36,647 nt of DNA from Mycobacteriales bacterium (GTDB lineage Bacteria > Actinomycetota > Actinomycetes > JAFAQI01). The stretch is taken from positions 1 to 36,647 of the forward strand of contig DASZRO010000108.1 of NCBI GenBank assembly GCA_035550055.1, given 5' to 3'. The notes under the pieces are model-generated. The model made no database searches, had not been told where the DNA came from, and saw only the letters and a program-made list of their open reading frames with translations. Positions 14,071-18,926 of this stretch are shown one piece after another (the stretch's first letter is position 1; every line of letters begins with the position of its first letter). Made by a program: the position numbers and the translations under genes.

Positions 14071-14658
14071 GTGACGACGCAGGACGTGGCGGCCGAAGCG
14101 CCCCGCGCATTGCGCGCAGATGCCCGGCGTAACCGCGACAAGCTCGTCGAGGTCGCCGCTGACGCGTTCGCCCGCGACGGCATCGACACCTCACTCGAGG
14201 AGATCGCCCGCACCGCCGGCGTCGGGATCGGCACGCTCTACCGCCACTTTCCCAACCGCGACGCGTTGCTGGAAGCGGTTTTCCGCCGCAACGTCGACGA
14301 CATCGCCGCCCAGGCCGACGAGCTGTTGGCCGCCCTTCCCGCCGACCAGGCGCTCGCGGAGTGGATGTCGCGCTTCGTGCGCTACGTCGCGGGCAAGAAG
14401 GGCCTCGCGATGCACCTGAAGTCGGTCGTGTCGCACGACGCCGAGATCTTCGCCTACAGCCACGACCGCATGGAGTCGGCGATGAAGCGGCTTGTCGACG
14501 CCGCTCGCGCCGCCGGCTCGATCCGCGCGGACGCCGACTACATGGACGTGCTCCGCGCGCTGTCCGGCGTGTGCATGATGTCCGACGTACCAGGCTGGCA
14601 GGACCAGGCGTGCCGGGTGTCCGGCCTGCTGATGGACGGCCTGCGCTACGGCGCCTAG
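14071..14658 (+). CDS. TetR/AcrR-family transcriptional regulator
   Basis: This 195-residue DNA-binding repressor has an N-terminal helix-turn-helix that reads IDTSLEEIARTAGVGIGTLY then RHFPNRDALLEAVF, typical of the family. The all-helical ligand-binding part carries MSRFVRYVAGKKGLA. I chose GTG 14071 because of the purine-rich GGAAAGGGCGAGAAAG before it. An in-frame GTG at 14035 would add 12 residues but lacks a ribosome site. Its stop is 5 bases before the APH-like gene, so it also heads that operon. It probably controls itself, the divergent MFS exporter and the downstream acyl-CoA/ABC genes. The ligand may be an acyl-CoA or toxic acid (inference). Confidence 0.92.
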   Translation: MTTQDVAAEAPRALRADARRNRDKLVEVAADAFARDGIDTSLEEIARTAGVGIGTLYRHFPNRDALLEAVFRRNVDDIAAQADELLAALPADQALAEWMSRFVRYVAGKKGLAMHLKSVVSHDAEIFAYSHDRMESAMKRLVDAARAAGSIRADADYMDVLRALSGVCMMSDVPGWQDQACRVSGLLMDGLRYGA

Positions 14659-14663
14659 CGCGG

Positions 14664-15650
14664 ATGGATCCGGGCTCTCTTGCGGCGGCGCTGGCAGCGG
14701 TGGTCGCCGACTCACTCGGGGTCACCTCGGTCGAGGTCCAGGAGGTACGCCGGCTCTCCGGCGGGGCGAGCCGGGAGTCGTGGTCGTTCGACGCCATCCA
14801 CGACGGCGGCGTCGAGCCGCTGATCCTGCGCCGGGCGCCGGCCGCGATCAGTGACGCCATCGGCCCGACGATGATGCTCGAGGCCGCCGCGATGCGCGAG
14901 GCTGCCCGGGTCGGCGTACCCAGCCCGCAGGTGCTCTTCGCCACCGCCGACAAGGAGCCACTCGGCGGGTCCGGCATCGTGATGAGCCGCGTCGACGGCG
15001 AGACGATCGGCCGCAAGATCGTGCGCGACGACACGTTCGCCGAGGTACGTCCGCGGCTTGCCCGCCAGTGCGGCGAGGTCCTCGGCCGGTTGCACGGCAT
15101 GGATCCCGCCGCCCTACCGCCGGTGGCGGACTCCTACGCCCTCGACGGGCTGCGTGCGCTGCTCGACGAGTCGAAGGTGGCCAGCCCGATGTTGGAGCTG
15201 GCGCTGCGCTGGCTCGAGCTGAACCGGCCGGTGTCGACCCGCCGTACGGTCGTGCACGGCGACTTCCGCAACGGCAACCTGGTCGTCGGTCCCGACGGCC
15301 TGCGCGCCGTCCTCGACTGGGAGCTGATCCATCTCGGTGACCCGATCGAGGACCTCGGCTGGCTGTGCACCCGCGCCTGGCGCTTCGGCGGCGACGGGCC
15401 GGTCGGCGGCTTCGGGGAGTACGACGATCTGCTGGCCGGGTACGAGGCGACCAGCGGGCAGCGGGTCGACCTGGACGTGCTGCGGTGGTGGGAGCTGCTG
15501 GGCACGGTCAAGTGGGGCGTGATCTGCATCGTGCAGGCCAACCGTCACCTCGTCGGCGGCCAGCGCTCCGTCGAGCTGGCGGCGGTCGGGCGCCGCCTGG
15601 TCGAGCAGGAGTACGACTGCCTGGAGCTGCTCGAGGAGCTGACGACGTGA
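14664..15650 (+). CDS. APH/ACAD10-type phosphotransferase, LvaA-like (predicted 4-hydroxyacyl-CoA kinase)
   Basis: This 328-residue kinase-fold protein has catalytic loop VHGDFRNGN (H198, D200, N205) and metal-binding DWE (D218) followed by HLGDPIEDLGW. Similar domains precede the dehydrogenase part of animal ACAD10/ACAD11, and stand alone as LvaA in Pseudomonas putida. There, as I recall, the kinase phosphorylates the 4-hydroxyl of a 4-hydroxyacyl-CoA. It is followed by a DUF6285-type protein (GTGA overlap) and an acyl-CoA dehydrogenase homologue, the same gene order as lvaABC. This context argues against drug resistance despite the aminoglycoside-phosphotransferase fold. Confidence 0.88.
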   Translation: MDPGSLAAALAAVVADSLGVTSVEVQEVRRLSGGASRESWSFDAIHDGGVEPLILRRAPAAISDAIGPTMMLEAAAMREAARVGVPSPQVLFATADKEPLGGSGIVMSRVDGETIGRKIVRDDTFAEVRPRLARQCGEVLGRLHGMDPAALPPVADSYALDGLRALLDESKVASPMLELALRWLELNRPVSTRRTVVHGDFRNGNLVVGPDGLRAVLDWELIHLGDPIEDLGWLCTRAWRFGGDGPVGGFGEYDDLLAGYEATSGQRVDLDVLRWWELLGTVKWGVICIVQANRHLVGGQRSVELAAVGRRLVEQEYDCLELLEELTT

Positions 15651-17260: not shown

Positions 17261-18162
17261 CGAAGGAAGTCGCGGTAAGCGTCCGCGGCCTGACCAAGAG
17301 CTACGGCAACGTGCATGCAGTGCGCGGCATCGACCTCGACATCGAGGTAGGCGCGGTCTACGCGATCCTCGGCCCCAACGGCGCCGGGAAGACCACGACG
17401 GTCGAGATCCTCGAAGGGTTCCGCCAGCGCGACGGCGGCGAGGTCAGCGTGCTCGGACTCGATCCCGGGCGGCAGCGAACGCAGCTCAAGGACCGGATCG
17501 GCATCGTGCTGCAAGCCAGCGGCATCGATCCCTACCTCACCGTCGCCGAGACCATCGAGCTCTACGCCTACTACTACCCGCATCCTCGGCCGATCGACGA
17601 AGTGGTCGAGCTGGTCGGGCTGGGGCACAAGCGCGACACCCGCGTGGTCAAGCTCTCCGGCGGGCAGCAGCGTCGCCTCGACGTGGCGATCGCGCTGGCC
17701 GGCGACCCCGACCTGCTGTTCCTGGACGAGCCGACGACGGGCTTCGATCCCGCTGCCCGGCAGGAGTCGTGGCAGATCGTGCGAGACCTCGCCCAGCTCG
17801 GCAAGACCGTCCTGCTGACCACCCACTACATGGACGAGGCCGAGCAGCTCGCCGACCGGGTGGCGATCATCGCCGACGGCAAGATCGTCGTCGAGGGCCC
17901 CCCGAGCCGCCTCGGCGGACGCGACCGGCGGCGGCCGCTGCTGACGTTCCGGCTGCCGGAAGGCGCCAAGCCGCCACGCGGGCTCGACGCCACCGTCGCA
18001 CCTGACGGGTCGTACGCCGTCGAGCCCGAGGACCTGACCGACGCGCTGCACCGGCTGACCGGCTGGGCGCGGCGCAACGGCATCGCGTTGGACGACCTCC
18101 AGCTGCGCCGGCCCACCCTCGAAGACACCTACCTCCAGCTGCTTGCGGAGCACACCTCATGA
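17257..18162 (+). CDS. ABC-2 type exporter ATP-binding protein
   Basis: This 301-residue ATPase of the DrrA/CcmA-like exporter class has Walker A GPNGAGKTTTVEILEG starting near residue 39, Q-loop GIVLQASGIDPYLTV, signature LSGGQQRR (from L133), Walker B LLFLDEPTTG and switch His in LLTTHYMDEAEQLADRV. A C-terminal extension of about 90 residues is typical of DrrA-like proteins. The GTG overlaps the dehydrogenase stop (GTGA), so it is translationally coupled to the acyl-CoA module. It pairs with the permease that follows. Confidence 0.93.
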   Translation: MTKEVAVSVRGLTKSYGNVHAVRGIDLDIEVGAVYAILGPNGAGKTTTVEILEGFRQRDGGEVSVLGLDPGRQRTQLKDRIGIVLQASGIDPYLTVAETIELYAYYYPHPRPIDEVVELVGLGHKRDTRVVKLSGGQQRRLDVAIALAGDPDLLFLDEPTTGFDPAARQESWQIVRDLAQLGKTVLLTTHYMDEAEQLADRVAIIADGKIVVEGPPSRLGGRDRRRPLLTFRLPEGAKPPRGLDATVAPDGSYAVEPEDLTDALHRLTGWARRNGIALDDLQLRRPTLEDTYLQLLAEHTS

Positions 18163-18926
18163 GGTTCGTCAGGCTCACCGGCTTCCAGCTCCGCTTCGTC
18201 AACAAGACGTACTGGCGCAACCCGACCGCGGCGTTCTTCACGTTCGCGTTCCCGCTGATGCTGCTGGTGATCTTCACCGCGTTGCTGGGCAACGGCCACG
18301 TGTACCTGTTCCACGAGCAGCTGCGGCAGTCGACGTACTACGTCGCGCAGATGGCGGCGTTCGGCGTGATCTCGGCCTGCTACACCTACGTCGGGATCGC
18401 GCTCACCTTCCAGCGGGACTTCGGCGTGCTCAAACGCGCCAACGGCACTCCGATGCCGGCGCTCGCGTTCTTCGCGGCGCGCGTGCTGCACGCGATGTTC
18501 GTCGCGCTCCTGCTGGTCGTCATCACCGCCGGCTTCGGCCGGCTGGCCTACCACGCGCACGTCCCGGGTGGCGCCACGCTGCTGCGCTTCCTGGTCATGC
18601 TCGTCGTCGGTGCGATGGCGTTCTGCGCTCTGGGCTTCGCGATCACCGCGGCGATCCCGAACATGGACGCCGCCGCACCCGTGGTGCAGGCGTCCATGCT
18701 GCCGCTGCTGTTCCTGTCCGGTGTGTTCATCCCGCTCGGCGACGACGCCGCGGGCTGGGTCAAGTGGGTGAGCCGGATCTTCCCGGTACGCCACTTCGCC
18801 GACGGCATGCTCGCCGGCTTCCTCGGCACTCCGTTTCGCTGGAGTGACGTCCTGGTCGTCGCGGCGTGGGGTGTCGGCGGGATCGCGATCGCGGTCCGTT
18901 ACTTCAGCTGGGAGCCTCGTACCTGA
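18159..18926 (+). CDS. ABC-2 type exporter permease
   Basis: This 255-residue membrane protein has about six helices: AAFFTFAFPLMLLVIFTALL near residues 22-41, FGVISACYTYVGIALTFQRD, then FFAARVLHAMFVALLLVVIT, the LLFLSGVFIPLGDD loop typical of ABC-2 permeases, and a last helix near the C-terminus. The short N-terminal cytoplasmic stretch and YWRNPTAAFFTF match exporter permeases of drugs, lipids or polysaccharides. The ATG overlaps the ATPase stop (ATGA), and this gene ends the TetR-headed operon. The cargo is unknown. Confidence 0.92.
   Translation: MRFVRLTGFQLRFVNKTYWRNPTAAFFTFAFPLMLLVIFTALLGNGHVYLFHEQLRQSTYYVAQMAAFGVISACYTYVGIALTFQRDFGVLKRANGTPMPALAFFAARVLHAMFVALLLVVITAGFGRLAYHAHVPGGATLLRFLVMLVVGAMAFCALGFAITAAIPNMDAAAPVVQASMLPLLFLSGVFIPLGDDAAGWVKWVSRIFPVRHFADGMLAGFLGTPFRWSDVLVVAAWGVGGIAIAVRYFSWEPRT

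Follow-up and report, generated by a model that had tools for sequence, protein, structure and literature searches.

We analyzed a 36,647-nucleotide stretch of a 3.5-Mb actinobacterial draft genome (GCA_035550055.1, contig DASZRO010000108.1; this whole stretch is here called the window), in which six closely packed genes at positions 14071 to 18926 encode a TetR-family repressor, an APH-fold kinase, a DUF6285 protein, an acyl-CoA dehydrogenase (ACAD), and the ATPase and permease of an ABC-2 exporter. Here we focus on the kinase-DUF6285-ACAD core of this run and its relation to the lvaABC genes of Pseudomonas. The six genes are separated, in order, by gaps of +5, −4 (GTGA), +9, −4 (GTGA), and −4 (ATGA), and a DHA2 exporter gene diverges from them. 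Open reading frames (ORFs), gaps, and Pfam matches agree on this layout, as described in a first-pass annotation made from the sequence alone. The features are as follows.

12405-13886, minus strand: divergent DHA2/EmrB-type major facilitator superfamily exporter (MFS_1; TIGR00711 248.6 bits, above the NCBIfam cut-off of 230.2).
13976-14014, no strand: two palindromes, probable TetR operators, CGGAGGCTGCTTCCG (13976-13990) and CGGAGGCTACCTCCG (14000-14014).
14071-14658, plus strand: TetR-family repressor with an SbtR-like C-terminal domain (PF00440, TetR_N; PF21597, TetR_C_43; GTG start).
14664-15650, plus strand: LvaA-type APH-fold kinase (PF01636, APH, 7e-34; motifs HGDFRNGN and DWE present).
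15647-15982, plus strand: DUF6285 protein of the LvaB family, all-helical (PF19802, 2e-23; model pLDDT 94).
15992-17260, plus strand: ACAD with a glutamate at the position of the catalytic base, here called Glu-type (Acyl-CoA_dh_1/M/N; H238, F267, R272, Q275, S278, E394).
17257-18162, plus strand: ABC-2 exporter ATPase, DrrA-like (ABC_tran; TIGR01188 236.7 bits, cut-off of 312.5 not reached).
18159-18926, plus strand: ABC-2 exporter permease (ABC2_membrane; TIGR00025 52.1 bits, cut-off of 146.9 not reached).

An in-frame GTG upstream at 14035 is an alternative start for the TetR gene, but a less likely one, given that the same-genus homologue lines up with the start at 14071. The arrangement exceeds what chance would give, since many genomes repeat the kinase-DUF6285-ACAD part; unlike this core, the ACAD-ATPase join did not recur in any surveyed locus. 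Neither the ORF list nor the sequence revealed an acyl-CoA synthetase, short-chain dehydrogenase/reductase (SDR), or thiolase gene within the run at 14071 to 18926, in agreement with the earlier remark that synthetase and thiolase are missing; equivalents of LvaE (the synthetase) and LvaD (the SDR) are likewise absent from it.

The first half of the core resembles its Pseudomonas counterpart. Reference LvaA, LvaB, and LvaC were taken from plasmid record NZ_MF344569 (L038), in which lvaB is annotated. That LvaB matches PF19802 (4.8e-24); therefore, DUF6285 is the LvaB family, as the first-pass annotation had proposed. When 95 kinases were placed in a tree, that of the window fell inside a group with LvaA, a Thermus kinase, and most DUF6285-linked kinases (support 95/97, with long branches among the LvaA rows), which bears out the proposed likeness to LvaA; clustering with non-LvaA phosphotransferases, looked for as a refutation, was not seen. 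The Thermus kinase of this group adjoins a true LvaC-type ACAD, and a separate group was formed by kinases beside LvaC-type ACADs such as those at loci L159, L161, and L162. Fusion of the kinase to DUF6285 in 39 related loci supports the idea that the two proteins act together, in line with the annotation of LvaB. A search of the DUF6285 model against solved structures returned nothing usable (best E value 4.8), and therefore we drew no function from its shape. By these sequence comparisons, the window carries an LvaA-type kinase and an LvaB partner, in the A-B-C gene order of the Pseudomonas lva operon.

The ACAD departs from this likeness at its active site. Studies of ACAD10/11 have named signature residues shared with LvaC (PMC12440821, PMC11342911); in mouse ACAD11, R626, H634, and R637, together with the base D753, are needed for activity and are common to LvaC (PMC12440821). 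These four positions are R, H, R, and D in LvaC and in the Thermus enzyme, and they align with F267, Q275, S278, and E394 of the window ACAD. Thus, the phosphate-binding residues of the HCMR region are replaced by F267, Q275, and S278 and the catalytic Asp by E394, which lies in the motif ITEGSDEIQ as the canonical catalytic Glu of an EG motif. The signature FRQ(S/A)E was found in all 93 members of a survey of window-ACAD relatives (the window's own included), and RRHRD was found in 25 LvaC-type ACADs recovered with an LvaC profile. Two RRHRD ACADs are encoded elsewhere in the window's genome (C72:2790-3992 and C31:41221-42261), the second of which adjoins an APH kinase. Because all four LvaC/ACAD10/11 signature residues are absent, 4-hydroxyacyl-CoA dehydration is not transferable from LvaC to the window enzyme, and the proposal that it is an LvaC-like 4-hydroxyacyl-CoA dehydratase was not supported.

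Nevertheless, the Glu-type ACADs stand next to the LvaC-type enzymes in phylogeny. In an unrooted ACAD tree, both types lay on one side of a branch (support 100/98) from 33 other ACADs, taken mostly from the window's genome and a second actinobacterial genome (G015), and each type also formed its own clade; the midpoint root fell between this pair and the rest. The grouping persisted when the active-site columns were masked (SH-aLRT 96). H238, equivalent to mouse ACAD11 H597, was present in 93/93 Glu-type and 26/27 LvaC-type enzymes and in 0/65 other ACADs; its position was checked on structure 8v3u. The ACAD model (pLDDT 86) gave its best structural Z score, 39.1, to human ACAD11, a value that ties with those of other ACADs, and Foldseek placed the ACAD11-type enzyme 4hr3 first and human ACAD11 second. 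On the basis of the ACAD trees and the H238 survey, we rejected an early reading of the enzyme as an ordinary ACAD unrelated to LvaC. These alignments and trees indicate that the window ACAD is a member of a conserved clade nearest to LvaC/ACAD10/11 that has a different active site, with a Glu base and without the phosphate-binding Arg/His/Arg set. In literature of partial coverage, we found no description of DUF6285, of this gene set, or of the Glu-type clade, which is apparently undescribed.

The distribution of the module was examined in a scan of named genomes (80 loci with 66 to 83% ACAD identity, from Actinomycetota, Pseudomonadota, Myxococcota, and others), which was extended with family members and plasmids to the 93 loci from bacteria and haloarchaea (L022 and L069 lie on the same contig). 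These loci are the closest homologues returned rather than a random sample, and some end at contig edges. Within 5 kb of the Glu-type ACAD, a kinase was found in 72/93 loci and DUF6285 in 67/93; the 39 kinase-DUF6285 fusions are among the kinase-bearing loci. On three haloarchaeal plasmids (L168, L169, and L170), the Glu-type ACAD and kinase are accompanied by a protein of ∼160 residues without a Pfam family in the DUF6285 position; in two of these plasmids, acetone-carboxylase-like (hydantoinase-family) genes adjoin the module. In Sulfitobacter, the module sits with genes for a CoA ligase, a crotonase, a hydratase, and a thiolase, and an LvaC-type ACAD lies ∼8 kb away. On the plasmid of Sulfitobacter pontiacus (L173), the Glu-type module and an LvaC-type (RRHRD) ACAD occur together within ∼10 kb, a natural setting in which to compare them.

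Kinases appear to have moved between the two ACAD types. Some genera of the window's family carry Glu-type ACADs and others RRHRD ACADs, and their kinases are neighbors in the tree. In same-family genera (L028, L029, L030, and L031), a kinase-DUF6285 fusion adjoins a true RRHRD ACAD, the opposite partner choice to that of the window. Forcing the Glu-partnered kinases into one clade, with the haloarchaeal kinases set aside, was rejected (p-AU 5.9e-5), indicating that kinases have changed ACAD partner. Chiefly from this pairing of neighboring kinases with either ACAD type, we infer that the two types are supplied with phosphorylated substrates of a similar kind.

One repressor had been proposed to govern both the operon and the divergent exporter. 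Between the TetR and DHA2 genes, the two palindromes lie 24 bp apart, and a same-genus genome (G001) repeats both with equal spacing inside a nearly identical block, where orthologues of DHA2 (78% identical) and TetR (82% identical) are again divergent. From this sequence pattern, TetR likely controls both sides in the window. G001 also carries the module; however, a GGDEF-EAL gene (L025:2483-4939) separates TetR from the kinase, and joint control may therefore not be a conserved property of the module. The proposal stands for the operator-like region, which is kept in the genus, but in G001 the module is split from TetR. After the module, this same-genus locus (L025) contains a cyclase gene and an enoyl-CoA hydratase gene. 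In the window, a TesB-like acyl-CoA thioesterase II gene (10422-11288, plus strand) lies ∼1 kb past the DHA2 gene, with one gene without a known family (11285-12286, minus strand) between them.

The first-pass annotation had also treated the ABC-2 exporter, joined by GTGA, as part of the system and asked whether it stays attached in relatives. The overlap at the ACAD/ATPase boundary is real, but an ABC-2 permease within 5 kb was found only in the window (1/93 loci); the pair was unlinked in all relatives (0/92 other Glu-ACAD loci), and the whole G001 genome yielded no close permease homologue (best match 27%). Coupling to the exporter is therefore lineage specific, and a conserved coupling was rejected by the locus survey together with the same-genus comparison. 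Exporter homologues (37 to 47%) were present in 7/394 genomes of the class. The six of these that were read keep ATPase and permease together without a TetR, kinase, or DUF6285 of the window kind, suggesting that the two genes move together and probably entered the operon at a late stage, in one lineage. It is fairly probable that this pair is also functionally unlinked, a mobile two-gene exporter that landed at the operon end and shares only the transcript. The rarity of the linkage and the independent occurrence of the pair elsewhere agree with this, but an identical 4-base GTGA overlap lies inside the conserved core, suggesting translation coupled by selection, and base composition is similar. 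In addition to the two missed cut-offs given above, TIGR01247 scored 38.7 against a cut-off of 223.1. A defence-system reading of the ATPase was set aside, its PADLOC matches being generic ATPase matches. Directly after the operon (19046-24522, plus strand), two similar large ArnT/GT39-like membrane proteins flank a glycosyltransferase-like gene, as judged from translations only.

Taken together, we consider it somewhat probable that the locus is a TetR-controlled operon with a variant of the LvaAB-LvaC pathway core. The kinase and LvaB would phosphorylate the hydroxyl of a hydroxyacyl-CoA, at C4 or nearby, and the Glu-type ACAD would turn the phosphoacyl-CoA into an enoyl-CoA for beta-oxidation, with activation and later steps supplied by genes elsewhere in the genome. 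The repressor would probably bind the two palindromes and thereby regulate the operon together with the divergently transcribed DHA2 pump. More tentatively, with a probability that we place a little below even, the Glu-type clade of bacteria and haloarchaea may represent a second solution for phosphorylated hydroxyacyl-CoAs, served by LvaA/LvaB kinases as LvaC is but with another base and phosphate pocket, and possibly meant for substrates that are branched or have the hydroxyl at a different position. Several points weigh against the variant-pathway explanation. The outgroup of the unrooted ACAD tree comes mainly from two actinobacterial genomes; sequence profiles, judged by scores to solved structures, place ordinary Glu ACADs ahead of ACAD11, a ranking compatible both with retained ancestral features and with distance; no kinase is nearby in 21/93 loci, some of these cases arising from contig ends; and the synthetase is missing from the window. 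Moreover, with all four ACAD11 residues replaced, the window ACAD may carry out ordinary alpha,beta-oxidation.

In a rival explanation that we regard as less likely, the Glu-type ACAD is a normal FAD/electron transfer flavoprotein (ETF) dehydrogenase whose substrate has a hydroxyl that the kinase modifies; the phosphate would then leave at a different step or would trap or detoxify the compound. Such a role would suit the canonical catalytic Glu and the lack of a phosphate-binding set, the top profile scores to ordinary enzymes resembling short-chain acyl-CoA dehydrogenase (SCAD) and to CarC, and the crotonases and thiolase nearby in Sulfitobacter. However, the closest neighbors of the ACAD in the tree are LvaC/ACAD10/11, the invariant H238 is common to both clades, and sibling genera combine close relatives of the kinase with true LvaC-type enzymes. 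We judge it improbable that, as first proposed, the locus is a true LvaABC system with exactly the 4-hydroxyacyl-CoA dehydration of Pseudomonas: the LvaA-group kinase, the LvaB family protein, and the gene order would fit, but the FRQ(S/A)E signature of all 93 relatives does not, and the genome already holds two true RRHRD ACADs elsewhere, one beside an APH kinase. We give very little credence to a resistance cluster in which the kinase inactivates an antibiotic that both pumps export. Although the locus combines an APH fold with a TetR and two exporters, the kinase belongs with LvaA-type acyl-CoA kinases in the tree, away from aminoglycoside/macrolide kinases (NCBIfam matches of ∼20 bits), and the pumps are missing from relatives, some of which lie beside beta-oxidation genes.

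Several known systems are close to the locus. The Pseudomonas lva operon shares the LvaA-type kinase, the DUF6285 protein LvaB, and the three-gene order with the ACAD third, but the window ACAD has F/Q/S/E for R/H/R/D and 30% identity to LvaC, and TetR and exporters stand in place of LvaD and LvaE. Mammalian ACAD10/ACAD11 likewise bring kinase and ACAD together, share the His equivalent to mouse ACAD11 H597, and include the best structural match (Z 39, tied), whereas in the window kinase and ACAD are separate proteins and the ACAD lacks the HCMR motif and the catalytic Asp. Loci of Gammaproteobacteria and Gordonia (such as L138 and L086) have the same three domains (ACAD 71 to 80% identical), but with kinase and DUF6285 fused, the ACAD first in most, and no ABC-2 exporter. 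The Sulfitobacter pontiacus plasmid cluster (L035/L173) has the same gene order and 63% ACAD identity; in contrast to the window, it is a complete catabolic cluster that also encodes TRAP uptake, in addition to the LvaC-type ACAD ∼8 kb off. The exporter pair resembles DrrAB-type ABC-2 drug exporters in domain make-up, but both proteins score below the curated family cut-offs.

By itself, the exporter join is a curiosity of one lineage. The ACAD bears on a broader question, given that ACAD10/11 and LvaC have been tied to 4-hydroxy acids only recently and that their signature residues have been taken as the basis for accepting a phosphorylated substrate. That reading can be tested directly on a sister clade that has none of the signature residues yet retains the kinase and LvaB as partners, and the outcome would be either a second catalytic solution or a different hydroxy-acid pathway common in environmental bacteria.

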